Virus record (IMG/VR): IMGVR_UViG_3300025889_012403
Coordinates: 1-21,966 of that record
Strand: one strand, 5' to 3'
Length of the DNA stretch: 21,966 bases
DNA from: a virus
Position 1 is the stretch's first letter; each line of letters starts with the position of its first letter. Shown piece by piece: positions 3,844 to 19,393 of this stretch. The notes under the pieces are model-generated. The model saw only the letters and a list, made by a program, of their open reading frames with translations, was not told the origin of the DNA and made no database searches. Position numbers and translations under genes: made by a program.

Positions 3844-6833
3844 CAGTTACGCCTAATCAAGCCTGCGTAGGTTGCCTGGATGCTGGCCTTCTCGTAGGCC
3901 CAGTGATCGCCAACGCTGGCGTTGCGAAGCCGAAGGAACACGCTGTCACCCACCACGCGGACTAGGGCGGTGCCATTGCGGCCAGCGCTTAGCGAGCCCT
4001 GCGCCACTGACCGCCCGAGGTGTTCGGGGTCGTCACTAGCGAAGAATTCGTAGTTGCACCCAGCAAAGCGGCTGCTCAGCACGGCTGTGAACTCCCCGAA
4101 CGCTGCCTCAGAAACGTCCCTGACAGGAGCTAGAGGGCCCATCAACACGTAGCTGTCGATAGCGACGTTGGGCGACAGAGCTGCCACGCCATCATGCTTC
4201 TCGTCGCTGTACGGCACCTGCCCATCACTGTTCAACCCCCAACGACGTAGGCGACCGTCCTCGCATCCGAAGTGGATCGCTCGATCGTCAGGCGCGTCAC
4301 CGTCGACAACCTGCACGGCAGTAGGCTGCAGCGCCGTATCGCTGGTCCCAAACCGGTCCACGTGCCAGCTACTGCTGCGCTTGCAGTAGAAGTAGTGGTC
4401 GACCGCGATCTGCGGGTTGTCGTACGGGAACAGCAGCACGTGAATGCCGTCCTCGACGTAGTTGTACGCCAGCTGCACGTAGTAGTCGTTAAGGTCGATG
4501 CTGCGCAGTCTGCGGCGAACGCTTTGCGACGCCACATCCTCCATCTGGCCACCAGGGGCAAGCGTGTACAGCCCGCCCTTGCTGCCAAAGAACCACAAGC
4601 GACCTTTGTCGTCACGACACCACGGCTTGCCAAAGGCCATCCCGATCTCGTCGCTGACGTTGTCAAACACATGCTGCGAGCCAGGGTCGCCGCTAAGCTG
4701 CCAGATGCTGTTGTCGCAGCCAAACCACAGCACGTCGTCGCTGTAGGGCACGATAGCGTTGATCGCGTCAGGGCAGATACCCGCACGGCTGGTCTGGCTT
4801 GACACCGCTGCCGCAGAGTCCGCAGTGATCGGGAACTCGTCCCAGTCGTCCCACTCGCCTGCGCGCGACATGCGCCACACGCCGGGGCGGTCCTCTGTGC
4901 GTGCTGCCACCATGCGACCACGCCAGTGCTGGATCAGCTGGCTACGTCGCGGCACCTCGCCGTTCGACGTGGCTACGTGGCGCGTGACCGTGTCCTCTTT
5001 GGCGTCGTACTTCCAGATGCTCGTGCCATCGGCAACGTAGATGCAGCCGTCGTACGTCGTCGTGTGCACGTACCGGTTTGTGCGGTCGTAGGTGGCACCA
5101 GCGATCTGCGTAACGCTCGTCGAGTCGTACTTGTACCAGTTGCCGCCAGACAGCGCGATAGTGCGCAGCTCGCGTCGAGGCTGAAGCCCTGCAATGCTTG
5201 GGTTGACCAAGCGCACCTGCACCGCGCCGTTCACGTCATCGCCACTCGAAGCGTGCTGCCCGCCCACAATCAAGGTGTCGACCGTTGTGGGCGTCGGGCT
5301 GCTGTCGTTGTAGTCAGGCGTGGCAAACGGCACGGCAGTCACGAGGTCAATCGAGCCACCACGGCCCAGCTGCGCCTGGGTGTACGAGTGCAGCACGCTG
5401 GAAGCGTCCGCCGCAACGACCAACACGCTCTTGCCGCTGTACGCGGAGTACGAGCCGGTCACGCCATAGGGCACATACAAACGACCGGCGTCGTCGCATG
5501 ACGCGCTGATGTTGTGACGGCCCGGAGCGCCGCTCGAATACCAGTGCGAAGTCGCGGCAAACGGCAACTGGTCGAGACTAATGTTGGTGCTGTTAGCCCA
5601 GTCAAGTGCATCGCCGTCATCTGCGACAAGCCGAATGTGCGGCTGCAGCTCATTCGGAACCGTCTGCACATGACCGCCAATGGTCCAGATTTGATAGCGA
5701 CCGTTGCTCTTCTCTGGGTGCACCAACACATCGAGGCCGTAGCCTTGATGATCCACGGCCTCGGTCACATTAGCCGGAGCCGTGCCATCTCCATAATGAT
5801 CCTCATTGGCCGGACCTGTGTGCTCACCCTGATACCCGTACTCGAACGCCTCTGCGCTTGCGTTTGGCGACAGGGGGTTCAAACGCAGCAGGTGCGCGGA
5901 GTGCAGATTTTGCGACCCGTCGACAATGGTCATCGTGCAGTAGACGACGCCGTCAAACCGCACCGCCATGCGTCCCCACGCTGCGTGGTTGGCGTAAGAA
6001 CCGCCATCATGCACAGAACCAGTCAGCGAGCTGTACTGCTTCGTGTAAGAGCTGTTCGCCTCCGCTTCCGGCTCCTCATCCATGCGGTACTCGGCATACC
6101 GCTCAAAGCGCACCTTGCACTGGCTGTCTGTCGTCGAGTGCTCGTAGCCCCACACGTACAGGTCGAGCCCGTAGATCGCGATGTCTAGCGGGAAGAACCC
6201 CGGCTTGATCGTGTACGCAACCGCGTAGGTGCCGTCGTTGCGCAGCTCCAACGCGATGATCTGCGCCTCGTCGTTGCTGACGTTGCTCGCGTTGTGACCC
6301 GTCGCTACGAAGATGTTGCCGTAGTCATCGACGGTCAGGCTTTTTAGCAGGAACGTCGTGCTGTCTGTACCGGTCTTCGTGTACGGCACACCTACGCTGA
6401 TGACCTGCTGGCCGTCCTCGTTAACCGCGATCACCTCGCCGTTGTTGTTTAGCAGCCACGTCGTGCCAAAGCTGTCGACGTGCTTGTCGACAACGTACAG
6501 GCCAAACGACAGGTCAAACTCGATCTCGCTTTCACGCACCGGGTCCTGCTGTGTCCACGTCAGAGGGTTGACGCTGCGCTGCACCTGACCAAGCGCGTCT
6601 ACCTTGTAGTAGCCGTTGATCGCCTGTTTGTCGGCGTACAGGCCTAGTCCAGGCCGTTGTGATCCGCGCCGACGCCCAGTCACGATGTCGAACGAACGCA
6701 TGTTGCGCTCGTCGCGACTCGTCTGCGGAATCTGGTCGGTATAGCTATATGTCTCGGACAGCCCGGAGTACGGATACGTCAGGTCGACCATCTGGCGACG
6801 GTCTGACATCAGGGGCTGCTCGGGTGCTTCCAT
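3843..6833 (-). CDS. Tail nozzle protein, T7 gp12-like (tail tubular protein B)
   Basis: This 996-residue protein starts at ATG 6833, overlapping the adaptor stop (TGATG); an internal Met at residue 9 is an alternative start. Near the N-terminus, residues 39-64 read SRDERNMRSFDIVTGRRRG then SQRPG, which matches the nozzle-family pattern of an Arg-rich GRRRG..RPG segment. The rest is a long array of beta strands with repeated short W/Y-G-D motifs, consistent with the beta-propeller of podovirus nozzles. T7 gp12 is about 794 residues, so this one is somewhat longer. Position immediately downstream of the adaptor and upstream of the fibre is the canonical order. It should form the distal hexameric tube through which DNA leaves and onto which fibres dock. 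Assignment rests on length, N-terminal motif and order. Confidence 0.82.
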   Translation of the reverse strand: MEAPEQPLMSDRRQMVDLTYPYSGLSETYSYTDQIPQTSRDERNMRSFDIVTGRRRGSQRPGLGLYADKQAINGYYKVDALGQVQRSVNPLTWTQQDPVRESEIEFDLSFGLYVVDKHVDSFGTTWLLNNNGEVIAVNEDGQQVISVGVPYTKTGTDSTTFLLKSLTVDDYGNIFVATGHNASNVSNDEAQIIALELRNDGTYAVAYTIKPGFFPLDIAIYGLDLYVWGYEHSTTDSQCKVRFERYAEYRMDEEPEAEANSSYTKQYSSLTGSVHDGGSYANHAAWGRMAVRFDGVVYCTMTIVDGSQNLHSAHLLRLNPLSPNASAEAFEYGYQGEHTGPANEDHYGDGTAPANVTEAVDHQGYGLDVLVHPEKSNGRYQIWTIGGHVQTVPNELQPHIRLVADDGDALDWANSTNISLDQLPFAATSHWYSSGAPGRHNISASCDDAGRLYVPYGVTGSYSAYSGKSVLVVAADASSVLHSYTQAQLGRGGSIDLVTAVPFATPDYNDSSPTPTTVDTLIVGGQHASSGDDVNGAVQVRLVNPSIAGLQPRRELRTIALSGGNWYKYDSTSVTQIAGATYDRTNRYVHTTTYDGCIYVADGTSIWKYDAKEDTVTRHVATSNGEVPRRSQLIQHWRGRMVAARTEDRPGVWRMSRAGEWDDWDEFPITADSAAAVSSQTSRAGICPDAINAIVPYSDDVLWFGCDNSIWQLSGDPGSQHVFDNVSDEIGMAFGKPWCRDDKGRLWFFGSKGGLYTLAPGGQMEDVASQSVRRRLRSIDLNDYYVQLAYNYVEDGIHVLLFPYDNPQIAVDHYFYCKRSSSWHVDRFGTSDTALQPTAVQVVDGDAPDDRAIHFGCEDGRLRRWGLNSDGQVPYSDEKHDGVAALSPNVAIDSYVLMGPLAPVRDVSEAAFGEFTAVLSSRFAGCNYEFFASDDPEHLGRSVAQGSLSAGRNGTALVRVVGDSVFLRLRNASVGDHWAYEKASIQATYAGLIRRN

Positions 6834-7918
6834 CAGCTAGGGCCGCTCACGCTGTTGTAGTTCCACATCATCGAGTTGACGCCGTGCTGGTACTCTGCAG
6901 CACCGTTCGCCATCGGACCCAGCACCGGCTGAGTCATCATGTCTCTCTGGCGGGCCATCGTGAACAGCGGGCCGCTGCGGATGCTGAACAGGCGCTGATT
7001 GACGTCCATCTCGCTATCGCGCTCATACCCTAGGGCGACGGCGCGCACGACTGCTAGGTACAGGCCCTCTAGCCACGTCGGCACACTGATGACGTCGTTG
7101 TCGCTGCGGATCTCCTGCCAGCCGCCGCGATAGTGGACGAGGAACACGTCGTCGCGGCTTGTCGCAGGAGTGGGCCACATCTCCAGTCGCGGGACCGGCG
7201 ACCCTCCAGCGCGACCGGGCACGGTCGATTGCGTGTCGAGCCAAGTCGTGTCATCCGTCGCAGACAAATAATCTGCGTCAGGCTCCCCGGTATGCTTGGC
7301 GTAGATATTAAACCTACCCGCCACTGACGTGTCTAGCTTCGCGTAGAACGTCAGTTCACCAATGCTGTTGATCAGCTCGACTAGCTCTGCAGCGTTTGCA
7401 ACCTGATCAGCCGCATGAGATTTGAACGCCCATGTGTTGCCCTGGAAGAACGTCGTAGCGGCCCCGCCCACAAACTTGTAGTCGGTGCTGCCGTCTGAGA
7501 CGGTCAAACCCTCGGTGTAGGTTGTCGATACGGTGTTCCCGTTGAACCGGAACTGGATCCGCGTCGGCGTAGCGCGCGGCACCCAAGCCAGCGCTGCCCA
7601 GTACTCCAGGCTGCTGCTGATGGTAGTGCCGCGCTTCTGAGCGACCTCTTGCAGCGTAGTCAGGTGAATGCCTGCGTTGATGGCATCAGTGGCCACCAGA
7701 GCGACGATCTCGCGAAGGTCCTCTGGCAGCCACATATAGTCCTGACCAGCTGTCAGGCTCAGAGTGCTCTGAGCCTGCTCAAGCCACCGCCAGGGGTGCA
7801 TAGACACCACGAAGTTGCCCGCGTCGTTCAGGATGCGCAGCCCACCAACGGTAGGCATTTGATCCGTACTGAGCGCGTGCCGGACGTGGTCCAGCGCTTC
7901 CCTGGCGGTGACAGTCAT
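6833..7918 (-). CDS. Head-tail adaptor, T7 gp11 / P22 gp4-like, with inserted domain
   Basis: The 361-residue protein starts at ATG 7918 overlapping the previous stop (TGATG). Residues 1-110 form the helical adaptor start (HPWRWLEQAQ at 41-50, LPEDLREIVAL at 64-74). Residues 245-300 contain LEMWPTP, FLVHYRGGW and a helix VPTWLEGLYLAVVRAVALGYER, the pattern seen at the end of tail tubular protein A and related adaptors. Typical members (T7 gp11, P22 gp4) are about 165-200 residues. The excess is a beta-rich block at about 121-240 that looks like an inserted domain. The protein should form the dodecameric ring between portal and nozzle; the next gene encodes the nozzle, which agrees. Confidence 0.8.
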   Translation of the reverse strand: MTVTAREALDHVRHALSTDQMPTVGGLRILNDAGNFVVSMHPWRWLEQAQSTLSLTAGQDYMWLPEDLREIVALVATDAINAGIHLTTLQEVAQKRGTTISSSLEYWAALAWVPRATPTRIQFRFNGNTVSTTYTEGLTVSDGSTDYKFVGGAATTFFQGNTWAFKSHAADQVANAAELVELINSIGELTFYAKLDTSVAGRFNIYAKHTGEPDADYLSATDDTTWLDTQSTVPGRAGGSPVPRLEMWPTPATSRDDVFLVHYRGGWQEIRSDNDVISVPTWLEGLYLAVVRAVALGYERDSEMDVNQRLFSIRSGPLFTMARQRDMMTQPVLGPMANGAAEYQHGVNSMMWNYNSVSGPS

Positions 7919-8388
7919 CAGATCTTAGTGTTGCTAAGCCCGTCGAACATGACCCATTGCGCAACTACATCACCGTTGCCCACGTCTTGCGTAGCTACGG
8001 CTAGCAGCTTGTCGTTAGTGGATGTGTTCATCTCAAGCTGAACTGCATTAGCCGTCGCGACTTCTCGGATAGACACAGAAGTGCCTGCCGTCAAGGTCCC
8101 GGCACTGCCGTTGCGCACGTTGACGTACACCACGCCTTGCACGACGACTTCGATAACGTCTCCGGCCTCTGCAGAGCCGCTGCAGACGCCGTAGTAGACG
8201 TCCCGTAACGGTGCGCTAGTTGCAGTCGTAGCGACGTGAGTGAAGTTACCGTTAGCTGCAATCTTCAGACTAATGACATTGTTTGCCGTCGCGCTGCCAA
8301 TGAGCTTCACACGCGCCTTCACCTGACCAAGGCCAGTGGGCAAATCCGTGTCTGTGTACGCCCCGGTTACTGCTGTGTTGTAAACCAC
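7918..8388 (-). CDS. Small beta-rich head protein, possible capsid decoration protein (156 aa)
   Basis: The best start is GTG at 8388-8386, because AAGGAG sits six bases upstream; the same ten bases AAGGAGAACC precede the capsid gene. The protein is rich in Thr, Val, Ala and Gly and predicted to be all beta. It contains GDVIEVVVQGVVYVNVRNG (about 88-106), followed by a Gly/Thr-rich turn, similar in feel to small phage head proteins with DUF2190-like beta folds. It ends in a TGATG overlap with the adaptor. It lies with the 151-residue gene between capsid and adaptor, the usual place for decoration or head-completion proteins. Role is inferred from composition and position. Confidence 0.7.
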   Translation of the reverse strand: MVYNTAVTGAYTDTDLPTGLGQVKARVKLIGSATANNVISLKIAANGNFTHVATTATSAPLRDVYYGVCSGSAEAGDVIEVVVQGVVYVNVRNGSAGTLTAGTSVSIREVATANAVQLEMNTSTNDKLLAVATQDVGNGDVVAQWVMFDGLSNTKI

Positions 8389-8413
8389 TCGGTTCTCCTT
8401 GTCAGGTAATGTA

Positions 8414-8438
8414 GGGGGGGCGGATTAGCCGCCCCCCC
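8414..8438 (-). terminator. Strong GC hairpin between two head genes, possible attenuator
   Basis: A perfect 10-bp stem (GGGGGGGCGG pairing with CCGCCCCCCC) encloses the five-base loop ATTAG in the 57-base gap between the 151- and 156-residue genes. No T tract follows it on either strand, so it is not a textbook intrinsic terminator. In the minus-strand transcript it could reduce read-through from the capsid segment into the tail genes or protect the 3' end of a capsid mRNA. Function is inferred; the fold is directly visible. Confidence 0.6.
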
Positions 8439-8445
8439 CCTATTG

Positions 8446-8901
8446 TCACACGGCGGGACCGCCGAACCCGTTGATGCCATCGAACCAGACAAGTCCAGTC
8501 CCGTCGGCGGCAACAGTCTCAAGCGCGTACGCCACGATCTTCTCAGTTCCAGCTGTAGTCAGATCGCCATTAGCGTTAACGGCTAGAGCGTCACCAAGGG
8601 TCCAACCGGATGCATCGGCAAGCGCCTTCGTGATGCCTTTGAAGCGGAAGCGGCCAGACTTGCCAGCCGCAATCCCCTCTTGAGCAATCGCAAACACGCC
8701 AGTGTCAACAGAGTCAAGGTTATCAAGCGGCGTGGTCGGCTGATCCATCGCGCCAATGTCGACAGACGTACCGCTCACGGAGATCGTACTCATGTCGACA
8801 GCCATGCACTCGAACTTCGCGCACACGGTCGTCGCAATGACTTTTGCGTCCTGAACGGCAACCTCAAGCTGCCCAGGGCCCTGAATAAATGCAAGAGACA
8901 T
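8446..8901 (-). CDS. Small beta-rich head protein, possible capsid decoration protein (151 aa)
   Basis: ATG at 8901 is preceded by AGGAGGT seven bases upstream, the strongest Shine-Dalgarno site in the window, indicating high expression. The protein has an early segment LEVAVQDAKVIATTV, then a Gly/Ala/Thr-rich region with RFRFKGITKALADASGW (about 83-99), GDALAVNANGDLTT (about 103-116) and GFGG near the C-terminus. The short strands and the phrases about value carry-over resemble DUF2190-type decoration proteins of phage heads. It sits 18 bases downstream of the capsid gene and is followed by a strong hairpin, which suggests the two are made together in large amounts. Specific family assignment is tentative. 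Confidence 0.72.
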   Translation of the reverse strand: MSLAFIQGPGQLEVAVQDAKVIATTVCAKFECMAVDMSTISVSGTSVDIGAMDQPTTPLDNLDSVDTGVFAIAQEGIAAGKSGRFRFKGITKALADASGWTLGDALAVNANGDLTTAGTEKIVAYALETVAADGTGLVWFDGINGFGGPAV

Positions 8902-8919
8902 AGTAAGTACCTCCTAATG

Positions 8920-10101
8920 TCAGGCAGGGATAACGGCGGTGCTAAGAATGCCGTCAGGAGCGATGATGCCCTGGCGCTGACGGCTGCGGCAGATGAAGTT
9001 GTGCCAGCAGTCCACGGGCATGACCGTGGTGAACGGCTGGTTCGGGTGCTTCATCGTCGGGTGCTGGTAGAAGTAGCGCGTCGTGTGGAACACGAACTTC
9101 AGGTAGTTAGCGTTGATGAAGTAGTAGCGCGGACCGGCGTCGGTCGCACCGCCAGATTCAGTCTTCGTGCCAGTCGTCTCCCAGGTGTCGCCGTAGATAC
9201 CAGCGGTATCTAGAGATGCGACATACTCCATGTCGACACCAGCGTACTGGGGCTTCATGTAGCTCGGGTCCTGACGGCTGCCGGTCACGAAGGTGTCCTG
9301 CGAAGCCCGCAGCGCAGCCACATACGCACGCTGACCACGACGCGAGGTCGCAACGAACATAGCGTTCAGGCTGGGGTTCTCGAAGTACTCCTGATGAGAC
9401 GGGGGCGGCTGGAACTGCACATCCATGTACATCGCGTCGAACGCACCGAACAGCTGCTCAGCAAGGTCGTTGAGGTCAGCAATCGTGGCTCCAGCAGTGT
9501 AGTTCTTGACTTGGTTACGCCACTTAGCCTCGGTAGCCGGGTCAATGTTCTGAATCGCGCTACCGCCAAGCGAAGCACCGTTAGTGGCGCTGGTGATGAA
9601 CGTAGGCAGGCTGTACGGCTTAGTGCCACCAGTGCCTTCCATGTCCGCCGCGGAGGGAACAGCAAACAGGCTGTCCTCCATGCCGTTGAACAACGAGGTC
9701 CAGAGACGCTGCTCCTTGGACCGCTTGATCGTCTTGTACGTCTGGTGACGGGCGTTGCGGCCCTGGCCACCGACGTTCAGCTCGATCTCGTGATCGGTCC
9801 AGCTCATGTGGTCGACGCTGAAGCGCCAGTCGATCTCCCACTGGTCCAGCACCTGAGGGTTCGTCCAAGTGAACGTCTCGTTGGGCTGGTAGTACTGGAA
9901 GGTCGACTTCTCGTCGAACAGGATCGAGTCCTTGATCGTCGAGCCACCTTGCAGGGTCTCGGAGGGTCCCTTGCCGCGCATAAAGCGGCGCAGGAGGTAG
10001 TTGTTCTTCACCGCCTCGTTGACGATGTCGTCAGCGCCGGTCAGGAATGCCGGACCGGTGCTGTCCATGAAGTCGTTGAAAGTGTCAAGTGCAGAGCCCA
10101 T
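8920..10101 (-). CDS. Major capsid protein
   Basis: The 393-residue protein starts at ATG 10101 with AAGGAG eight bases upstream. Size, location just after a scaffold-like gene, strong ribosome site and heavy use of C-ending codons (AAC, TAC, TTC) all mark the major coat protein. The C-terminal region contains YYFINANYLKFVFHTTRYF (about 327-345), then NQPFTTVMPVDCWHNFICRSRQRQG, the late strand arrangement found in many podovirus HK97-fold coat proteins, where an aromatic-rich strand is followed by a basic tail. The middle has the helix LNDLAEQLFGAFDAMYMDV. No N-terminal delta domain is recognisable, which agrees with a separate scaffold gene. It assembles the icosahedral shell around the scaffold and portal. 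Confidence 0.88.
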   Translation of the reverse strand: MGSALDTFNDFMDSTGPAFLTGADDIVNEAVKNNYLLRRFMRGKGPSETLQGGSTIKDSILFDEKSTFQYYQPNETFTWTNPQVLDQWEIDWRFSVDHMSWTDHEIELNVGGQGRNARHQTYKTIKRSKEQRLWTSLFNGMEDSLFAVPSAADMEGTGGTKPYSLPTFITSATNGASLGGSAIQNIDPATEAKWRNQVKNYTAGATIADLNDLAEQLFGAFDAMYMDVQFQPPPSHQEYFENPSLNAMFVATSRRGQRAYVAALRASQDTFVTGSRQDPSYMKPQYAGVDMEYVASLDTAGIYGDTWETTGTKTESGGATDAGPRYYFINANYLKFVFHTTRYFYQHPTMKHPNQPFTTVMPVDCWHNFICRSRQRQGIIAPDGILSTAVIPA

Positions 10102-10113
10102 CTCTGGTTCTCC

Positions 10114-11091
10114 TTATCGTCGGCCAATAGCGCGAGCCCGTTGAAATCTGTCGGGATCGTCGCTCTCAAGAATTTTAAGAACTGCGTCCTCTCGCTCCGA
10201 GGGAGACGAGTATTGCTGCTGAGGGGTCGTAGGTCGCGGTCGCACCTCGGGTTGCCCCTTGGAGCGATATCCGTTCAGGCTGCGCTTAGCCTCCTGCGTG
10301 GACTCCTTGATCTCCCCTCGGAACTCAAGAAGCACGGCCTCTTCCATAAGGTCACGCACAGACTTGTCCGGCTCTTCCTGAGCCAGCTTGTCCATGCGAT
10401 CCAAAACCCGGCTGAACTCCTCACTGCGGACGTCTTGCACCTGGGGGTACTCAGATTGCAGCTCAGACCGGGCGCGATCGACCTCCTGGCGAACCAGGGC
10501 GGCTTGCACGCTTTGAAGCGCTTGCTGCTGCTGCTGCACCAGCTTGCGCATCGGCTCGACGCTAGACTGCTGGAATTGACGCAGCAGGTCTTTGCCTGCA
10601 TCGTCCAGACCGAGGTAGTCGCTCAGAGAGTCAAGGTGTTGCGTATCAGCTTCGGGTAGGTCCGAGGTGGGCTCTGCTTGCTGGCCTTCCTCAGAGTCCT
10701 CAGCTTCCGTGTCACCTTGAGGCTCTTCGCTCTCCTCACGCAGCTTGCGGTCGATGTCTGCCTGCATCTTCTTGCGATGCTCAGCCATCGCAATCAGACG
10801 TTCTTCAGGCAGTGCTTCAAAGTCTTCGTCTGTCCAGCCGTCGCGACGCAGCACGTCGTAGGCATCCGACAGATCGGGAGAGGTGGGCGCAGGCGACTCG
10901 TCAGCGCTCTCTCCAACGCTCACTTCCCCCCCTACACTGGGCTCATCACCTGCGCCCAGAGGTACAAGATCATCTTCGTCAGGGGTGCCGTCAAGCTCCA
11001 TGAGCACGCGATCCTGTTCGGCATCGCGCGACTCTGTCTGCTGTTGCGGCTCGGCAGCCTGCGGCTCCGGGGTTTCTGCTTCGTCAGTCAT
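10114..11091 (-). CDS. Scaffold-like protein (325 aa)
   Basis: The ATG at 11091 overlaps the preceding stop (TGATG); one codon upstream there is only a TTG. The protein is very acidic in its first 150 residues (runs such as DGTPDEDDL, REESEEP and DTEAEDSEEGQQ), with Gln-rich stretches. The middle is a long amphipathic helix with QQQQQALQSVQAALVRQEVDRA, probably coiled coil. The C-terminus is short and basic (DPDRFQRARAIGRR). Acidic start, coiled-coil middle and basic C-terminal helix directly before the major capsid gene are the hallmarks of podovirus scaffolding proteins, whose basic C-terminus contacts the coat. No protease motif is seen. Assignment is from architecture and position, not from a sequence signature. 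Confidence 0.8.
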   Translation of the reverse strand: MTDEAETPEPQAAEPQQQTESRDAEQDRVLMELDGTPDEDDLVPLGAGDEPSVGGEVSVGESADESPAPTSPDLSDAYDVLRRDGWTDEDFEALPEERLIAMAEHRKKMQADIDRKLREESEEPQGDTEAEDSEEGQQAEPTSDLPEADTQHLDSLSDYLGLDDAGKDLLRQFQQSSVEPMRKLVQQQQQALQSVQAALVRQEVDRARSELQSEYPQVQDVRSEEFSRVLDRMDKLAQEEPDKSVRDLMEEAVLLEFRGEIKESTQEAKRSLNGYRSKGQPEVRPRPTTPQQQYSSPSEREDAVLKILESDDPDRFQRARAIGRR

Positions 11092-11291
11092 CAAAGTTCG
11101 TCGTAGTGTAGGTTGACGCCTTCCTCGCCACGTGCGCGGCGACTAGCCTCATGCGCCTCTTGCATGTTGCGGAAGACTGGACGCCCCTTTTTATCAAACT
11201 CGCCCTTGTGGTACTTCCAGTTCTTCGGAAGCTGGCTGGAGGCGAACGCGTCGTTTTTTCGCACAATAATGCGGCTGTTGGCTTTTGTCAT
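11091..11291 (-). CDS. Hypothetical small protein (66 aa)
   Basis: ATG at 11291 follows the previous TGA after five bases, and the gene ends in a TGATG overlap with the scaffold. A GTG six codons upstream is an alternative start but lacks a ribosome site. The sequence MTKANSRIIVRKND then LPKNWKYHKGEFDKKGRPVF is basic and polar with one aromatic cluster, ending in an acidic tail (HYDEL). It has no recognisable motif. Conserved tight spacing on both sides supports that it is real. It is co-transcribed with portal and scaffold, so a minor head or assembly role is possible but unproven. Confidence 0.65.
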   Translation of the reverse strand: MTKANSRIIVRKNDAFASSQLPKNWKYHKGEFDKKGRPVFRNMQEAHEASRRARGEEGVNLHYDEL

Positions 11292-11296
11292 AATAA

Positions 11297-11587
11297 TCAG
11301 CAGCGCCACCTGCGGCGCGCTTGGTTGATGCGACTGTTAGGGTCGTTGCGGGTCTTGGCGCTAGCCTGCCTTTTCTGCCCAGCGCTTCGGGCGCAGTACG
11401 ACTTGCGTCGAGCCGCGCGCTTGCCGGTAGGGCTCTTCTCGGTCACAGCCGTCTGCAGCTTGCTACCAGGGTTCGCGCGACGGTGGGCGGCTACACCCTT
11501 CTTGGTCATGCCCGCCCCTGAATTGGTCGAACGGTAGTTGCCGGACGCCTTGGACTTGCTGATTGCCTTTTCTCGTTTTCTAGGCAC
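11297..11587 (-). CDS. Small basic conserved phage protein with RRKSYCAR and RRWRC motifs
   Basis: The start is GTG at 11587-11585, with AGGAG six bases upstream inside the end of the portal gene, and an eight-base overlap with it. The 96-residue protein is very basic. It has the ordered elements GMTKKGVAAHRRANPGS (about 26-42), TEKSPTGKRAARRKSYCAR (about 49-67), DPNSRINQARRRW (about 82-94) and a final Cys. I recognise this pattern from a small uncharacterised protein found beside head genes in many marine and podovirus genomes, possibly the Pfam DUF6321 group, though I am not certain of that name. Two Cys residues and high charge suggest nucleic-acid or metal binding. No role is established here. 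Confidence 0.75.
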   Translation of the reverse strand: MPRKREKAISKSKASGNYRSTNSGAGMTKKGVAAHRRANPGSKLQTAVTEKSPTGKRAARRKSYCARSAGQKRQASAKTRNDPNSRINQARRRWRC

Positions 11588-13472
11588 TCGGGACTCCTGC
11601 AGGATTTGCCTGCGGTGCTTGCTGCTGCATCGAGCCTAGCATGCGCGACATCATCTGACCCGCGTTGGGCAGCTCAGCGCTCGGCTTAGCCTGCGTCGGC
11701 AGCTGCGTCGAGCCCGCCTGCGCCACGAACATCGGCGTAACCTGCTTGGGCGGAGGCATCGCCTGCGACTGCTGCATGCGCTGCAGGTCCATAGCAAACC
11801 GCTGCAGCAGCTCAGGCCGGACAAGCTCAGGCAGATCGGGAGCGTTCATCGCGTTGCCGATCTTCTGGAAGTGATCCTGCCACGGGTAGTCAGGATACAT
11901 CTGCATGGCCTGCAGGCTGTTGATCAGAAGCTGGTGCGTCTCAAGCGCGCGCTTCTGCGCCATGCCCTCGCTGGCCCTCTCCATGCTGTAGGGCTCAATC
12001 TCCAGCTCAAGATCCTCAAACTGATATCCAGAATCAGCCCCATGTCCACCGCCTTGAAAGTACGGCTGTGCTTGCGGCGACATTGCCAGTTCACGGATGA
12101 CCTCCTCGCCCAAAGGGAACACGATGCGGTCATCGTGGTACATATAGAAAGCCACCTTCTCAAGAACCGCCGTCACGCTGTCGCTGAAGGCCTGCTTGAT
12201 GTAGCTGATGCGCGCCTGAGCGGCTTCAGACGCGATTGTGTGCTCAGTAGCTGTGCCAGCGCCGGAAACCGCGCCGCGCAACGCTTCATCCATACCGAGT
12301 GCGCGATCCGCGCGTTCACGGCACGTTCTGATCCAGATCGCCTGCTGCTCTGTCTGTCCACCAAGCTCAAACTCCTGCACCTGCGCGCGCCCGTCCTCGA
12401 ACGGCACGACTGCAACATAGTCATGGCCGGTGTCCTTGACCAGCTGCGCCGTGCGCGGGTCGTTGACGCCGACGATCCGCTTGTGCTTAAGCATAGCGTT
12501 GCTTGCCGCTCGCACGTGACGGTTCAGCTCCGACATCTGCACCTCGACGGCGGTCAGAGGGCTCAGAGGGATAGGGCTATCCGGCACCTTGTACACGCCA
12601 AACATCGCGTACGGTCCAGTGCGCGGTCCGTAGTACGGACGCGGCTTGCGCAGGAACTTGCCCATAGGCTCTGCGCCCTCAGCGGTCACCGCGCTGCACA
12701 GCGTCACAATCGTGCCGTGGAACCCCTGCGCAGCGCCGGGGCTGTCAGGCAGCTCTAGCCCAGGCACCCAAACTTCGTAGAACACGATCTCGTCGCGCTC
12801 GGGCGTGTACTTCGCGTCTCTGCGCACCTTGACCGGGTCAGCCGCCACGGCCTCCTTCAGAGCCTTGACGTCCCAGCCCATGTCAGGCTCGGCGTTCGCG
12901 AGGTCAAGCATCTCCCTGCGTGCCCGGCGAACCTCATGTCCAAGGAAGAGCGCGTCGCTGATGCGCGTGCATCCAGGGTCGATCAGGAACTGCTTCTGGC
13001 TGATGCGCTCGACAACAGGCCACATCGGCTTGCTCGGCTCTTGGTTGTCCGCCTCTGGCGTCATGACAGCCTTGCCGCTGGTGTCGTAGTAGTCCTCGCG
13101 CACCACCGCAATGCCATAGCTAAACAGCATGTCCGTGCACAGCTCTACCAGCTTCTTGCGCAACACGCAGTCTCGGACCCACCGGTTGAGCCCGTAGCGC
13201 ATGGCCGTAGCCACGTCGTTCGCAGGCCCAGGCTTGCGGCTACGCACCTGCACACGAGGGTTGTCGAAGATGAGCTTAGGGATCATCAGCGACATGTACT
13301 CGTAGTACGTGTTCTCAGGCGCGTAGTCCTCTGCAGTGTTGTAGGAGTGCGGGTTCCACGCAGGGCCGCGGTAACGCTCGATCATCTCGTCGAGCTTCTT
13401 CAGGTGACGATTGCGGAACTCGACCGCAGCCTTCACCTCCTCCATAGCGTGATCAGCGTGATCGAACGACAT
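11580..13472 (-). CDS. Portal protein
   Basis: I chose ATG 13472 because AAGGAG lies nine bases upstream; it overlaps the terminase end by 20 bases. A GTG at 13511 would add 13 residues with no ribosome site. The 630-residue product is of podovirus portal size. Residues 1-35 are helical and charged. About 56-72 (YEYMSLMIPKLIFDNPRV) and 112-128 (MLFSYGIAVVREDYY) follow the portal wing pattern, and about 156-170 (RISQKQFLIDPGCTR) is the typical portal segment where a strand ends in DP. The C-terminus (about 565-630) is Gln/Met/Pro/Ala-rich, like a barrel or disordered end. It follows the large terminase directly and precedes scaffold and capsid. It forms the ring through which DNA is packaged. 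Confidence 0.88.
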   Translation of the reverse strand: MSFDHADHAMEEVKAAVEFRNRHLKKLDEMIERYRGPAWNPHSYNTAEDYAPENTYYEYMSLMIPKLIFDNPRVQVRSRKPGPANDVATAMRYGLNRWVRDCVLRKKLVELCTDMLFSYGIAVVREDYYDTSGKAVMTPEADNQEPSKPMWPVVERISQKQFLIDPGCTRISDALFLGHEVRRARREMLDLANAEPDMGWDVKALKEAVAADPVKVRRDAKYTPERDEIVFYEVWVPGLELPDSPGAAQGFHGTIVTLCSAVTAEGAEPMGKFLRKPRPYYGPRTGPYAMFGVYKVPDSPIPLSPLTAVEVQMSELNRHVRAASNAMLKHKRIVGVNDPRTAQLVKDTGHDYVAVVPFEDGRAQVQEFELGGQTEQQAIWIRTCRERADRALGMDEALRGAVSGAGTATEHTIASEAAQARISYIKQAFSDSVTAVLEKVAFYMYHDDRIVFPLGEEVIRELAMSPQAQPYFQGGGHGADSGYQFEDLELEIEPYSMERASEGMAQKRALETHQLLINSLQAMQMYPDYPWQDHFQKIGNAMNAPDLPELVRPELLQRFAMDLQRMQQSQAMPPPKQVTPMFVAQAGSTQLPTQAKPSAELPNAGQMMSRMLGSMQQQAPQANPAGVPSA

Positions 13473-14904
13473 CAGTCGGCACTCCTTCTTTGGTGTGGCC
13501 AAGCAGGCCACCGAACGTGTCCATAGGGAACGCTACGTCGTCCTCGTCTAGCGACATATCGCGGTTCCACATGAACATAGCAGCGTAGCGTAGGCAGTCG
13601 ATTGCGTGATCACTACATCCAGGGTCAGGGCGCTCCTTAGTGGGCTTGCCGTCCTTCGACCGCGTCCAGATGTAGCTCGGCAGCTCGTCCTCCAAGCACA
13701 CCGGACGCTTCTTCTCGACACGGTCGCGGTCCTTGCCCACTAGCGAGTCGCGCAGAATGAAGATGCGCGGGCCATGATCGGCGGGACTGAACCCCCATCG
13801 CACCATGTCAATGCCGGTGCGAATAGCGTTCCTAGCCTTCCTGGCGATACGGTTGCCGTTTCGCCCGCGCGCGTGACCCAGCCGGTCGTTAAACACCTTG
13901 ATGTACTCCGGCTCGCTGGGATCGCAGACTATGGCTTGCAGGTCGTACTTCTCGTTGTAGTAGATGACCTGCTCAGCCCACCAGTCCATCGTCTTGCCAG
14001 TGCGGTACAGCTCGGCAATACGGTACATGCGGTCATCGTTGACGCCCCATATCTGCAGGCATCCGGGGTGCCGCAGGCCCTTGTCGTAGCTGCCGAAGCA
14101 CCATTTGAACTCGGGCGCGTCTTCCTTGTCGATGATGTGGATCGCGGGGTCGTACTCCTCGAAGATGACCCCCTCTTCGCTCGCCCACTTGCCCTCATAC
14201 AGGTTCAGTCGGCGCGCACCGGGAGGCAGGTTGGCCAGCACTCCGTTGACGTAGGCGTCCCCACGCTTAGTCCACGCGCCAACCTCGTGATCCCAGTAGG
14301 TCGGGTTGTCTTGGTGGCGCGACAGCAGACGCAGCTTCTTGTCGGCCTTGTGCCGGTCCGGCACCTCGCGGAAGCCCTGCGGGAAGTACTGGTTCAGCCA
14401 ATGGAACTCGCCCGCAGGGTTGGTGTCCGCGATGCGCATCTGCCAATCCATCTTGAAGTTACGGTTGGCACGCGATAGGTACTCCCAGCTGTTCTGGTCG
14501 ATCTCTCTGGCCTCAAAGACCGAGATAACGTCGTACTGCGTCGAGAAGGTCTTTTCCGGCTTGTCCAAGCCACCCAGCACGATGTGACTTCCGTTGGGGT
14601 AGTGGTAGTTCTGCCGGTTGTTCCGGCCTGCAGAGCCGTGAATAGCGGGGTGCCCAGGCCACAACACTTCCTCTTCGAAAGTAACTAGCACCGACTCGGC
14701 CAGCGACTCTCTTGTTTGACGAAGCATGAGTACGCGGATGCCTGGATTGGACTCGCATAGGTAGTTGATCCACTCAAGAAGGGCACGAGTCTTACCGGTT
14801 CCAGCAGGGCCCTCAAGCAGCAGCTCGGCGGGGCGCAGAGTCCACAACTCTCGCGCAGCGCCGTACGGCGTGTACTCGTGGACGACCTGCTGCTGCTCGC
14901 TCAT
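13453..14904 (-). CDS. Terminase large subunit (packaging ATPase/nuclease)
   Basis: The 483-residue protein starts at ATG 14904 with an ATGA overlap. Residues 32-39 are GPAGTGKT, a Walker A loop. Residues 57-68 (RVLMLRQTRESL) form the usual second strand. Residues 124-134 (YDVISVFEARE) are the Walker B and catalytic Glu region, with Phe where Asp is more common. Residues 157-166 (RIADTNPAGE) are the coupling motif. The nuclease half shows LYEGKWASEEGVIFEEYDP (235-253), then likely metal-binding acids in FGSYDKG (Asp274) and VCDPSEPEY (Asp328). Length fits the family. It is unusual that about 4 kb separates it from the candidate small subunit. It should translocate DNA through the portal and cut concatemers. 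Confidence 0.95.
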   Translation of the reverse strand: MSEQQQVVHEYTPYGAARELWTLRPAELLLEGPAGTGKTRALLEWINYLCESNPGIRVLMLRQTRESLAESVLVTFEEEVLWPGHPAIHGSAGRNNRQNYHYPNGSHIVLGGLDKPEKTFSTQYDVISVFEAREIDQNSWEYLSRANRNFKMDWQMRIADTNPAGEFHWLNQYFPQGFREVPDRHKADKKLRLLSRHQDNPTYWDHEVGAWTKRGDAYVNGVLANLPPGARRLNLYEGKWASEEGVIFEEYDPAIHIIDKEDAPEFKWCFGSYDKGLRHPGCLQIWGVNDDRMYRIAELYRTGKTMDWWAEQVIYYNEKYDLQAIVCDPSEPEYIKVFNDRLGHARGRNGNRIARKARNAIRTGIDMVRWGFSPADHGPRIFILRDSLVGKDRDRVEKKRPVCLEDELPSYIWTRSKDGKPTKERPDPGCSDHAIDCLRYAAMFMWNRDMSLDEDDVAFPMDTFGGLLGHTKEGVPTDVVRSR

Positions 14905-15332
14905 ACTGCCTGCAGCCCCTTCAGGTAGAGGCGATTGACCCAGCGCACGGTGCCGTAGCTGGTGGTCTTCAGCGCAAACTCGATCGTGTAGATGTTGCCG
15001 CCCTCAAGGGTGTAGTTAGCTCCGCTGTACGGCAGGCGATACACGAAGTTGTGACCTGTGTCGTCCAGACCACCCCAGTAGTCGTGGCTGTAGGTGTCCG
15101 ACAGGTAGTCCCCGACAATGGCTGCAGGAGGAACCGCAGACCCGCTGATGTCCAGCAGGGTCACTTCACGCTTGCGGTTGCCGACTGTCGTCTGACGGTA
15201 CAGCGTAACCACCAGTGCGCTTGCGTCTGACGACACGTGACTGTTCATCAGCTGCGACCCGTTAGGCAGCTCAAGACGATGAGCAAACCAAACGTCGTTG
15301 CCCTCTGTGACCTCTGCGCTTACTTCGTACAT
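14901..15332 (-). CDS. Hypothetical beta-rich protein (143 aa) between Calx-beta protein and terminase
   Basis: ATG at 15332 overlaps the stop of the 821-residue gene (TGATG), and the end overlaps the terminase start (ATGA). A longer frame could begin at TTG 15416, but that would overlap the upstream gene by 85 bases, so I reject it. The protein is all beta by appearance, with LVVTLYRQTTVGNRKREVTLLDIS (about 40-63) and YTLEGGNIYTIEFAL followed by GTVRWVNRLYLKG near the end. The end resembles a small Ig-like or accessory tail or head sandwich. Its coupling with the 821-residue gene suggests that the two work together, perhaps as a virion accessory pair. No family is recognised. Confidence 0.7.
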   Translation of the reverse strand: MYEVSAEVTEGNDVWFAHRLELPNGSQLMNSHVSSDASALVVTLYRQTTVGNRKREVTLLDISGSAVPPAAIVGDYLSDTYSHDYWGGLDDTGHNFVYRLPYSGANYTLEGGNIYTIEFALKTTSYGTVRWVNRLYLKGLQAV

Positions 15333-17797
15333 CAGGTGGTTACCGTTGTCGTAGAGCGCGGATCGCTGGTGATAGCCAGCCCACGCGGTGTCCAGTAGTT
15401 GCCGAACGAGGGCCAAAACCGTGCCGGAGGTCCCATCGGGTGACCCGAGTTAAACTGGCTCTCCTGCGTCTCAAACCACCAGCTGTGCATCAGCGCGCCA
15501 CGCTCGTTGCTTCGGATGTCTTCTAGCGTGTTCGTGCCACTGCGCGAGCCATCCTGATAGCGACCGCCGCCAGCAGGGTACGGGTCTGGCTTGTTGGTTC
15601 GGCTGTCCACCCACACCGGATACTCGATCGGGTTGCCGATGTCGCCGCTGAACTCGTAGCCACGCAAGTCGTAGTAGGCGCTTGCGGTGTCCGTAATCTT
15701 GTTGCCGCTTGTCTCGCTGCTGACCTCGTCGTAGTTCCACAGGCCCTTGTCGCCGCTGTTGACTAGCGTGTCGCCGCTTAGGCCAGTCTGGTTCTCTGTG
15801 CCGTACCGGTACAGCTCGCCTGTCTGTACCTCATCGGGCATGTAGTGAATGAACCACAGGCACAGACCAGCCTCATCCCTAGTCACGCCATACCAGTCGT
15901 TCCAGCCGTCCGCGCTGCTAACCACTGAGCCTGCATACCCAGAGGGCCGCATCCACGTGTTGTACCGGTGCCAGAACCAAACCTCGACGCCGCTGACGCT
16001 GTCGTAGTAGTACTGCACGTTGGTGCCTCCGGCACTTGCCGGACCCATGTAACGGCCAGCCCCGTCGACGATTGTCTCGGTGCGGAAATTTGCAGGGAAC
16101 GAGCTAAGCCAGCCAGTGCTGCTGTAAGCGATAGCCCGCGCGCCATAGGCTGTAGCTGTGTTGATTTCTGGCCTAGCAGCGTCCATAGCCAGATTCACAG
16201 ACGCGCCGTCCTGCGTCGCATAGATGCGAAAGGCTGGGTTCAGCGCACTGATCTGCGCCGTGAGCTGCTGTGCCCAACCAGAAGCGTCGGTGCCACCACC
16301 GACAGGCAACGGAACCTCAATGTTGCCGCCGCCACCACCGGTACCGAAGTGGAACACATGGCTCGTGCCCGCGTAGTCCTCTAACGTAATCGTTTCACCG
16401 CTCGGATCGGTGCCGTTGAACGTTACTACAGCTGTTGCCGGGGTCGAGTCCCCGAACGCTCCAGCTCCGCACCGCCTGAACTTGAACGTCACACCAGGGT
16501 TGCGGTCGCGCACGCGGATGCGGAACCCGACGCGGCTGTACTCGACGTTCTTGCTTGCCTCGGAGCCAGTGAAGAACTCTCGGCGGTAGGCCACCCTCGT
16601 CCATCTGTTCAGCTCAAACGCGCTGATGGGTCCACCGCCGTACGCCGCCGGGAACTCCTGACGGATGTACGGTATGCCAGTGACGTTCTCGGACGGCACG
16701 ACGTAGCGCATCTCTCGCCCGGTGATGGGGTCCGTGACCGCGTTGTCGGGGATCGTAATGACTCCCTGCGACGCGTTAGGCTCGTTTAGGTTCAGCTCGC
16801 CAGCGCCATCCAGCAGGTGCAGCGTAGGGACGCCACTCATCTGTGGGCGGAACCCCTGGCTAGCGGAGTACGTGCGTACCACTAGACCGCTGGTGAACCC
16901 GTGTCGACCGATGTCGTTGCTACGGCGCACGAGGTTCTCGTCCACGTGCACGTCTCTGTCGACGCTATATGTGGCCGCATCAGGGTCGATCCATGTCTGC
17001 TGCTTGGACGGGACAACCGTGCTGCGCTCGTGGTCTACCGTGATAGTGCGCGAAGCGCCGCCGCCAGTGGTCTCGGTAAAGTTTACGACTTTACTGCTTT
17101 CGCCCGACGCAATCGTTAGTGAGCCGCTGTTGTTGGCACTGTCTGTCGCTACTACGTCCGTGTTGTCCCAGGTGTAGTAGACCGTGACCGGGTCGATGCA
17201 CGCGGCGTCCAGGCTAAACGTCAGATCGAAGGTGCCGCTGAAAGCGCCGCCTCCAGTGACAGTCAGAACGGGCGGAGTCAGCCTAGAGGCAATGCTGACC
17301 AGATTGCAGTTGGCGTAACCCAGCACGCTCGCGCCGTTGACGTTTTGCTGCTCTATGCGGACGTACAGCAGGCGCTCTACAAACCACTGCGTCCGCTTTA
17401 CCGGCGTTACGCGTATGTCGTGGTAGATTTCTCCCGGCTTGAAGCTGTAGCTGAACCCGCCGACCTGCGTAAAGTCTGTGCCCTCAACGGCTTCGTAGTA
17501 GCCCTCCGCGGTCAGGTCCACGCTAGCGTCCCATGCGGGCTGCGGCAGCCCCAGCGTCAGCGTAAACGACTCGTAGCCCTTGGCAGGCTGAGTCAGGTAC
17601 ACACGCAGCACGACCGCGTCGGAGTCGTCCAGCACATACCGGAACGGGTACGGGAAGTCCTTGCCGTACGTACCGCCCTCGTTGATCTGGGCGTTGTACT
17701 TCGACAGGTGGGCTAAGCCGATGAACTGCGTCGGCTCTGCATCCGCTCTGCTAGCGTAGGTACCCTTAGCACCAGCGGTTGCGTAGGTTCCGACCAT
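15332..17797 (-). CDS. Large Calx-beta-containing virion-associated protein (821 aa)
   Basis: ATG 17797 overlaps the previous stop (TGATG). Residues about 55-172 look like a Calx-beta domain (EGTDFTQVGGFSYSFKPGE, then ERLLYVRIEQQNVNGAS and CNLVSI). Residues about 176-257 are a second, shorter one (GTFDLTFSLD, GSLTIASGES). Residues about 455-560 form a beta-rich block (TFNGTDPSGETITLEDYAG) similar in pattern to the insert in the adaptor protein. The last 250 residues are rich in Trp, Tyr and Gly (VEVWFWHRYNTWMRPSGY), as in sugar-binding or lectin-like folds. Such proteins usually sit on virion surfaces and use Ca2+ or glycan contacts. It lies between the terminase genes, an unusual place for a fibre-like protein. 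No enzyme motif was recognised. Confidence 0.78.
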   Translation of the reverse strand: MVGTYATAGAKGTYASRADAEPTQFIGLAHLSKYNAQINEGGTYGKDFPYPFRYVLDDSDAVVLRVYLTQPAKGYESFTLTLGLPQPAWDASVDLTAEGYYEAVEGTDFTQVGGFSYSFKPGEIYHDIRVTPVKRTQWFVERLLYVRIEQQNVNGASVLGYANCNLVSIASRLTPPVLTVTGGGAFSGTFDLTFSLDAACIDPVTVYYTWDNTDVVATDSANNSGSLTIASGESSKVVNFTETTGGGASRTITVDHERSTVVPSKQQTWIDPDAATYSVDRDVHVDENLVRRSNDIGRHGFTSGLVVRTYSASQGFRPQMSGVPTLHLLDGAGELNLNEPNASQGVITIPDNAVTDPITGREMRYVVPSENVTGIPYIRQEFPAAYGGGPISAFELNRWTRVAYRREFFTGSEASKNVEYSRVGFRIRVRDRNPGVTFKFRRCGAGAFGDSTPATAVVTFNGTDPSGETITLEDYAGTSHVFHFGTGGGGGNIEVPLPVGGGTDASGWAQQLTAQISALNPAFRIYATQDGASVNLAMDAARPEINTATAYGARAIAYSSTGWLSSFPANFRTETIVDGAGRYMGPASAGGTNVQYYYDSVSGVEVWFWHRYNTWMRPSGYAGSVVSSADGWNDWYGVTRDEAGLCLWFIHYMPDEVQTGELYRYGTENQTGLSGDTLVNSGDKGLWNYDEVSSETSGNKITDTASAYYDLRGYEFSGDIGNPIEYPVWVDSRTNKPDPYPAGGGRYQDGSRSGTNTLEDIRSNERGALMHSWWFETQESQFNSGHPMGPPARFWPSFGNYWTPRGLAITSDPRSTTTVTT

Positions 17798-18477
17798 CAG
17801 AAGGGCACATTGTACATCTGGTCTGCGTACCGCTTCCGCGCGTAGTCACGCTTCTGCAGCTCGGTCTTGCGCGCTTGGCCACGCTGGCCCGCAGTCGTCT
17901 CGCCACGGTAGCTAGCGCTCTGGCCCTCGAACTGGTCCAGCCACGCAGCTTCGTAGTCCTCGTCCGGCGCTGCGCCTCTGCCATACAACCCAGCGGTATC
18001 CATGCTCGGCTTCTTCCCTGGATCGCCTAGCTCGCCTTGGAAGTCAGACATATCGTAGGGCGTCTCAGTGCCCTGCATTGTCTCCATAAGGCCCGTCAGC
18101 GTGTTCTTCTTCGAAGGGTTCAGGATGTTCCCATCGTCGTCGCGCTTCTGGTAGGCGAGACGAGTGAACTGCTTAGCAGCCTTGCCGTAGTCGCTGCTGC
18201 CCTTCATTTTGCCGCCGTCGTACTTCTTGTAGAACGCGCGGAACGAGTCCAGCTGGTCCTCGCCAAGGATGTACACGTCCTTCTGCATGGAGCCGTACTT
18301 GGACCCCTTGCTGCCGAGGATGCCGCTGCTGCCCGTCCTCAGGCGCGACCGGATGATGCCGTAGTAGTTGCCGGTCTTAGGGTCATAGAAGACACCGTCA
18401 CCCGTCTGGCCATCGCTGTAGCCAGGGTTGTAGTCGGGTGACGCCTGATCCCACGATCCGTACGACTGCTCAACCAT
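17797..18477 (-). CDS. Hypothetical protein, Gly/Tyr/Asp-rich (226 aa)
   Basis: ATG 18477 has a weak AAGAAGAG ribosome site and overlaps the preceding small gene by eight bases; the gene ends in TGATG with the 821-residue protein. The N-terminus is low complexity (YNPGYSDGQTGDGVFYDPK). A basic, helical middle (about 75-120) includes FRAFYKKYDGGKMKGSSDYG, and the C-terminus is charged and helical (RGQARKTELQKRDYARKRYAD). I do not recognise a family. The order suggests it belongs with the 821- and 143-residue proteins. A structural or adaptor role is possible, but the evidence is only position. Confidence 0.7.
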   Translation of the reverse strand: MVEQSYGSWDQASPDYNPGYSDGQTGDGVFYDPKTGNYYGIIRSRLRTGSSGILGSKGSKYGSMQKDVYILGEDQLDSFRAFYKKYDGGKMKGSSDYGKAAKQFTRLAYQKRDDDGNILNPSKKNTLTGLMETMQGTETPYDMSDFQGELGDPGKKPSMDTAGLYGRGAAPDEDYEAAWLDQFEGQSASYRGETTAGQRGQARKTELQKRDYARKRYADQMYNVPF

Positions 18478-18628
18478 CGCTCTTCTTCACGGCCTTCTTC
18501 TTGGACGCTTTCTTCGCCACGGGCTTCGGCGCGGGCTCCGGGGGATCGACCACCGGCTCCAGCATCTGAGCAACTGCCTCTCGCAACGCACGCCGCTTGG
18601 CGCGCTTAGCACGCATCGTTCGAGCCAT
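18470..18628 (-). CDS. Small Lys/Arg-rich protein (52 aa)
   Basis: I start this at ATG 18628, where GAGGT lies nine bases upstream; the longer frame extending to 18853 would read through another gene in a different frame and is not believable. The 52 residues begin MARTMRAKRAKRRALREAV and end with PAPKPVAKKASKKKAVKKSDG, so both ends are strongly basic around a Pro-rich acidic patch (EPVVDPPEPAP). This composition resembles histone-like or disordered DNA-binding tails. A DNA- or RNA-binding role is plausible but unproven. Tight packing with the neighbours supports that it is expressed. Confidence 0.6.
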   Translation of the reverse strand: MARTMRAKRAKRRALREAVAQMLEPVVDPPEPAPKPVAKKASKKKAVKKSDG

Positions 18629-18648
18629 AACTATGACCTCTTGTTCCC

Positions 18649-18813
18649 TCAGCTTTGCTTCATGCGCCCAGGCGTGCCCTTCTTGCCCTTCATGCCCTTC
18701 ATGCGGGCCTTCACGGCATCCTTGTGGGTCATCTTCTTCTTGCCCTTGCCTCCGCCCGCACTGACAGGCTTCCCAGGCTTGTTGTAGCGACTCGCTCCGC
18801 TTCCGTACTTCAT
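18649..18813 (-). CDS. Small very basic protein (54 aa)
   Basis: ATG at 18813-18811 overlaps the stop of the previous gene (TGATG), and AGGAG lies seven bases upstream, giving a strong start. The 54 residues are Gly- and Lys-rich: MKYGSGASRYNKPGKPVS, GGGKGKKKMTHKDAV, ARMKGMKGKKGTPGRM. The stop is TGA at 18651-18649. It is too short to appear in many gene predictions, yet the start signals are among the best in the region. The repeated GK/MKG units suggest nucleic-acid binding, perhaps as a minor DNA-condensing protein in the head. This is an inference from composition only. Confidence 0.65.
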   Translation of the reverse strand: MKYGSGASRYNKPGKPVSAGGGKGKKKMTHKDAVKARMKGMKGKKGTPGRMKQS

Positions 18814-19016
18814 CAGGGGACTCCTGGTCCAGGGTCAACAGGTGGGTTGTCATGGTCGTACACCTGATCCACGGCCTGCTTGATCTGCTCTAGCTCCGTG
18901 ATCACCTCTGCAGCGTCAGTCGCGAGGTCGATGCGAGCTTGGAGCGCTGGGCTGATCGCCCGGTGCACGTCGATGTTCTGAGTAAAGAACTGAAACGTAT
19001 ACGTCTGGCCACTCAT
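18813..19016 (-). CDS. Hypothetical small protein (67 aa)
   Basis: ATG at 19016 overlaps the candidate small terminase stop (ATGA), and the end overlaps the next gene (TGATG). The sequence starts MSGQTYTFQFFTQNIDVHR, and its middle is a helix (ATDAAEVITELEQIKQAVDQVY), followed by a Pro-rich tail (NPPVDPGPGVP). I see no motif that identifies it. Couplings at both ends support expression. It may be a partner of the terminase or of the following small basic proteins, but nothing in the sequence decides this. Confidence 0.65.
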   Translation of the reverse strand: MSGQTYTFQFFTQNIDVHRAISPALQARIDLATDAAEVITELEQIKQAVDQVYDHDNPPVDPGPGVP

Positions 19017-19393
19017 GCCACGTCCTCGTCAGCCACCTCGGCCTCAACCAGTCGCGGCGGCTCCGCGAAGCCGTACCGCTTCACGTGCACCTCCGACTCG
19101 ATGCTCTGCTTCTTCACCACCGCACCGTCAATCCGGTCCCACAGCATCTCCAGCACCTTGTGATCGCCCATGCGCGCACGGTGCACCATACCCATGACGA
19201 TCTGCTCCATGTACTCGGGGTTCTCCTCCAAGTACGTGTTCAGCGCCTTCTGCAGGCTCAGCTTCTTCTTCGGTCTGCTCCAGCCGTCCTTCGCCATAGG
19301 TGTCGCCAGCCCCTCTCGGACCATCATCGCGTGCGCCTGACCCGGCGTACGCACCGTCGACCAGTCTAGCTTGCGCGCACCCACAGCACCCAC
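19013..19393 (-). CDS. Candidate terminase small subunit (126 aa)
   Basis: The 126-residue frame may start at GTG 19393 (or GTG 19384); no clear ribosome site decides it, so the start is uncertain. The middle contains RPKKKLSLQKALNTYLEENPEYMEQIVMGMVHRARMGDHKVLEMLWDRIDG, a basic segment then two helices, the look of small terminase and DUF5681-like phage proteins that describe a DNA-binding helix followed by an oligomerisation helix. C-terminal residues are acidic (VEAEVADEDVA). It is first of the large late operon, the usual place for the small subunit, but about 4 kb lie between it and the large subunit. It should recognise packaging DNA. The assignment is moderate. Confidence 0.6.
   Translation of the reverse strand: MGAVGARKLDWSTVRTPGQAHAMMVREGLATPMAKDGWSRPKKKLSLQKALNTYLEENPEYMEQIVMGMVHRARMGDHKVLEMLWDRIDGAVVKKQSIESEVHVKRYGFAEPPRLVEAEVADEDVA

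Follow-up and report, generated by a model that had tools for sequence, protein, structure and literature searches.

A modular protein with a predicted Calx-beta fold, encoded in a regular and exchangeable slot between phage terminase genes, is a candidate tail adhesin

The stretch of DNA examined here, referred to as the window, is a virus record of 21,966 bases, and its features are collected in Table 1. The large terminase (TerL) was identified with certainty from its profile matches. Profile matches to TerL, to a major capsid protein, to an adaptor of SU10 type and, weakly, to a portal of the same type mark the block as podovirus-like and structural. The small terminase (TerS) was assigned by position, as was the nozzle. 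A further 33 loci (some are duplicates of one contig) match the HMM of the TerS candidate upstream of TerL, and DUF5681 gave a weak match in relatives. The ORF coordinates agree with the original prediction, which had placed proteins of 821, 143 and 226 residues (here B821, b143 and g226) between the TerS candidate and TerL. Both B821 and b143 are judged to be real genes because homologues, 23–31% identical for B821 and 29–45% identical for b143, occur in many contigs.

Table 1. Positions of genes and of B821 regions in the window.
Feature	Position	Strand	Description
g920	1081–3843	minus	Second fibre candidate, 920 aa; PKD domain and phage head-spike-fibre domain
SU10-type adaptor	6833–7918	minus	PF24175, 27.3 against a cut-off of 27
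Major capsid protein	8920–10101	minus	phrog_9953, 7.7e-16
Portal, SU10-type (weak)	11580–13511	minus	Score 21 against a cut-off of 30
TerL (large terminase)	13453–14904	minus	phrog_2, 1.2e-28; Terminase_3 above cut-off
b143	14901–15332	minus	143-aa frame; Ig-like beta-sandwich by model
B821	15332–17797	minus	821-aa ORF, ATG start; proposed tail-associated adhesin or receptor-binding protein
B821 residues ~586–821	15335–16042	minus	Conserved Trp/Tyr/Gly-rich C-terminal core (alignment)
B821 residues ~446–585	16043–16462	minus	Exchangeable inserted module, ~140 residues
B821 residues ~52–256	17030–17644	minus	Two Calx-beta-fold domains (AlphaFold2 and Foldseek)
g226	17797–18477	minus	226 aa, hydrophilic, variable family (alignment); coupled, upstream of B821
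g127	18470–18853	minus	127-aa Lys/Arg-rich frame, overlaps the start of g226
TerS candidate	19013–19393	minus	126 aa; same-position HMM family in relatives

Gene overlaps of 1–8 bases run throughout from g127 to TerL, with TGATG junctions between g226 and B821 and between B821 and b143, and a four-base ATGA overlap between b143 and TerL. Because these genes overlap they were read as one late operon, which would run in the order TerS, g127, g226, B821, b143, TerL, portal, with translation probably coupled across the overlaps. The true start of g127 may be a later internal ATG.

The AlphaFold2 model of B821 was built from 16 rows and had a mean pLDDT of 43. Within residues ~52–256 the means of 10-residue blocks lay at about 39–85, most at 55–85, and residues ~258–821 gave a low-confidence, unreliable model. 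When the model was compared with the PDB using Foldseek, the best 11 matches were all tandem Calx-beta domains of NCX1/CALX, with E values of 3e-11 to 2e-9. The global TM score was low, at 0.36–0.40 of the target for the CBD12 crystal structures, and the match is local, at domain level only. The model supports a tandem Calx-beta fold for the N-terminus of B821, like that of NCX1/CALX CBD12, at the level of fold only. The two Calx-beta-like domains described in the original prediction were recovered by the structure prediction and fold search that it had proposed, but did not extend to family membership: Pfam gave no Calx-beta profile match for B821 or 15 relatives, and PHROGs and NCBIfam gave no convincing family match for B821. 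Neither these profile libraries nor sequence searches of the PDB yielded a convincing match to b143, and the PDB searches gave none for B821. Unlike in NCX1/CALX, no acidic Ca2+ motif was seen in B821 when the alignment was inspected by eye against the consensus; where DD..E would be expected, the aligned proteins have TPVKRTQWFVER and similar sequences. The T7 fibre N-terminal tail-binding domain PF03906 was absent from B821 in the profile search, and B821 has none of the known domains that would anchor it to a tail or capsid. No publication linking Calx-beta to phage tail proteins was found among titles and abstracts in a partial library. The Trp/Tyr/Gly-rich end, also described earlier, corresponds to a conserved core in the alignment.

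With TerL as query, 52 IMG/VR loci were retrieved, among them L001, the population of the window itself (100%); most are fragments and several duplicate one population, and all counts given here are of loci rather than independent lineages. The TerL, portal and scaffold frames of L048 are fragmented, by sequencing errors or in a decayed copy. TerL matches among isolate phages were distant (33–34%, to Thermobifida P1312 and Streptomyces Dagobah), no capsid or portal match was found in isolate phages, and B821 had zero matches there. By sequence similarity the isolate-phage collection contains no member of the group, and only TerL has distant counterparts in it. The gene order obtained from the HMM map was TerS, middle protein, large beta protein, b143, TerL and portal, continuing with scaffold, capsid, g151, adaptor and a large protein behind the adaptor. 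The B821 family was present in 17 of 43 loci, with TerL identities of 85–100%, plus L026, L034 and L035 at 76–77%, and it lay between TerS and TerL in every TerL-retrieved B821 locus with TerS visible. More distant relatives fill this slot with an unrelated protein of ~300–620 aa, often with a 147–171 aa partner, and four loci (L019, L022, L038 and L039) have no large protein there. Profile comparison gave no relation between B821 and the B470/B566 replacement proteins.

The suggestion that an accessory cassette had been inserted into the packaging block was for the most part contradicted by these maps. Counted over the rows of the HMM map, each of the 43 TerL-retrieved loci with sequence upstream of TerL has the b143 family directly before that gene, and the B821 family, where present, occupies the same slot in every locus with TerS visible. 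An accessory insertion should be absent from close relatives, and the gene was found in all clade relatives with sequence there. The original prediction had itself named a regular place in the terminase blocks of relatives as an outcome that would speak against an inserted cassette, and within this clade that is the arrangement found; the wider group keeps the slot, with the large protein replaced or missing. The slot is best read, from gene order, as constitutive with exchangeable content rather than as an insertion into a normal block. It is improbable that B821 is an accessory ('moron') gene outside the virion structure, encoding a secreted or host-modifying surface protein, even though the slot content is variable and the TerS-TerL interval of Burkholderia phage CSP3 is known to vary as well (PMC10269572). 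The gene is present in every clade relative and lies between TerS and TerL inside the late structural block, where the overlaps from g127 to TerL, judged by themselves, leave no room for a promoter or terminator of its own.

The model of b143 had a pLDDT of 84.4 and resembled V-type Ig-like folds (TM 0.3–0.4), in keeping with its earlier description as a beta protein. It also matched small uncharacterised phage proteins in BFVD and, weakly and at rank 46 (E 8e-3), a capsid chain of phage N4. A role as dedicated partner of B821 was rejected, each protein being found without the other, and b143 would instead be a structural protein in its own right, Ig-like and linked to TerL. Its strict tie to TerL and the four-base overlap would suit a part played by B821, b143 and g226 in packaging or assembly, perhaps that of a terminase scaffold or chaperone, which would explain the fixed position. 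For the three proteins together this is very improbable, since unrelated proteins replace B821 in other relatives and B821 carries swapped modules, whereas the packaging proteins here are conserved; such a role is more plausible for b143 alone.

Sequence divergence was concentrated in the slot. Among pairs of B821-encoding phages, with the near-identical L002/L003 left out, identities were 86–94% for TerL, 69–92% for TerS and 73–88% for the portal, compared with 28–42% for g226, 34–66% for B821 and 41–60% for b143. B821 and g226 thus vary far faster, in these alignments, than TerS, TerL and portal. Within B821 the divergence was partly modular. The homologues of L002 and L003 are 98–100% identical over residues 1–450 and 78–100% identical after ~593, but only 26–34% identical over residues 451–592. 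The L002 block is 78–94% identical to that of L014, while much of the remaining L002/L014 pair lies at 38–80%. The window and L082 share a TerL of 91% identity, and their B821 proteins are 16–26% identical within residues 446–559 and 40–86% outside (flanks mostly 50–86%). The alignment gave no counterpart of block ~446–585 in L026, L034, L060 or L062, which agrees with the insert-like character proposed for this region. These comparisons show, at the sequence level, a block of ~140 residues swapped between near-identical phages. The homologues of L060 and L062 hold another insert of ~200 residues at different positions, which may be a sugar-binding jelly roll; that of L062 is related to virion structural proteins of Vibrio jumbo phages (25–29%). 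Searching isolate phages with the module gave one weak match (E 0.2), a structural/tail protein of a Klebsiella phage. An exchangeable, fast-evolving module in a conserved background is a feature of the receptor-binding class, and B821 shows it in sequence, with binding putative.

The L082 copy occupies 8160–12920 of CP070811.1, where a piece of phage is bounded exactly, on each side, by a run of 100 Ns within the chromosome of an Anaerolineales MAG. With those runs at its borders and chromosomal genes on either side, it was rejected as evidence for an Anaerolineales prophage; it is probably an artefact of scaffolding and gives a weak hint of the host only.

At the T7-type locus the gp17 tail fibre adjoins the gp18/gp19 terminase genes. 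Four further contigs, L059–L062, carry B821 homologues in T7-like genomes, where the homologues lie between a fibre gene and TerS/TerL; the arrangement was seen in two T7-like lineages. The order in L062 is an internal virion protein (phrog_6651), a T7 tail fibre (PF03906 and phrog tail-fibre families), the B821 homologue, TerS (PF11123, phrog_891) and TerL (phrog_38), with the B821 homologue beginning on the last base of the fibre gene. L059 has an internal virion protein, a T7 fibre, the B821 homologue one base later and, in the TerS position, a 189-aa gene (phrog_9869, function unknown); TerL of this lineage was scanned in the L060 copy. The L060 contig is cut off inside the gene preceding the B821 homologue, and also encodes a PAPS reductase-like protein. 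The expectation that fibre genes normally sit away from the terminases was too strict, as these relatives have fibre and B821 homologue directly before TerS/TerL. Linkage to tail-fibre genes, a second feature of the receptor-binding class, was found in the T7-like relatives only, and this gene order is the strongest argument that B821 may belong to the host-contact apparatus. The window differs from the T7-type arrangement in that its B821 gene stands between the two terminase genes, next to a head and tail set of SU10 type, and B821 itself, unlike gp17, has no T7 fibre N-terminal domain.

Taken with the predicted tandem Calx-beta fold and the exchanged modules, the fibre adjacency favours the surface or host-contact type originally assigned to B821. 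The preferred reading, given a probability of roughly 0.6, is that the virion carries B821 at its tail, where the protein would serve as a modular adhesin or in receptor binding, and that the gene occupies a regular but exchangeable terminase slot. Its two N-terminal Calx-beta-fold domains would form a stalk and the conserved C-terminal core a body, and exchange of the ~140-residue module inserted in the core would alter what the protein binds. The main rival is that B821, with b143, forms a capsid-surface decoration or head fibre with weak sugar or cell binding, its position reflecting head assembly. Packaging and head genes do adjoin B821, b143 is Ig-like with its weak match to the N4 capsid chain, and the L062 insert occurs in proteins annotated only as virion structural. 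We nevertheless consider decoration rather unlikely, given that the homologues in T7-like contigs come directly after a tail-fibre gene, and that b143 was not found in those contigs and therefore forms no obligate pair with B821.

The window resembles the Kuravirus/SU10-type podoviruses tentatively in its portal, which scored below the cut-off, and its adaptor, which scored just above it, and also in the order TerL, portal, scaffold, major capsid protein, adaptor and a large protein after the adaptor, the nozzle by position. Kuraviruses have adjacent TerS and TerL genes (gp3-4) and long fibres behind the capsid gene (gp10-11) (PMC9965538), whereas a large variable protein separates TerS from TerL in the window. 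Burkholderia phage CSP3 and its Bcep22-like relatives do carry variable genes between TerS and TerL, which the authors regarded as unusual (PMC10269572), but nearly all genes of the CSP3 interval are hypothetical and the fibres are elsewhere. Distantly related Alteromonas phages share a tail-fibre host-recognition module (PMC10579305); in that case the fibre moves together with its chaperone, and the likeness to B821 is one without shown homology.

B821 is a candidate host-recognition protein for a widespread group of uncultured phages to which no sequenced isolate is closely related. Genes of this kind could be overlooked by annotators who look for fibres behind capsid or tail genes. Host range is not necessarily determined mainly by B821, because the phage also has g920 as another fibre candidate. 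The head-spike-fibre domain of g920 (NF048003, residues 552–717) scored above the cut-off, and its relatives align mainly to the first 350–500 residues.

Conserved terminases around a variable adhesin provide a testable model of host-recognition gene exchange by recombination. More tentatively, and at somewhat less than even odds, the TerS-TerL interval of an uncultured podovirus group might be a docking slot reserved for host-recognition proteins. This would comprise exchange of whole adhesins (the 821 type, the 470/566 type or none), swaps of sub-domains, and conserved TerS and TerL acting as recombination anchors. A strict choice, with a large protein encoded either between the terminase genes or, in spike-like form, behind the capsid gene, is suggested by L019, L022 and L039 when set against the B821 phages, but was rejected as L029 has both. 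Repetitive proteins are encoded between the capsid and adaptor genes of these four loci (L019 16621–19038, L022 17127–20155, L039 12770–14191 and L029 11300–12124); they are mutually related at 29–56% identity, and that of L019 gave a weak beta-helix match.
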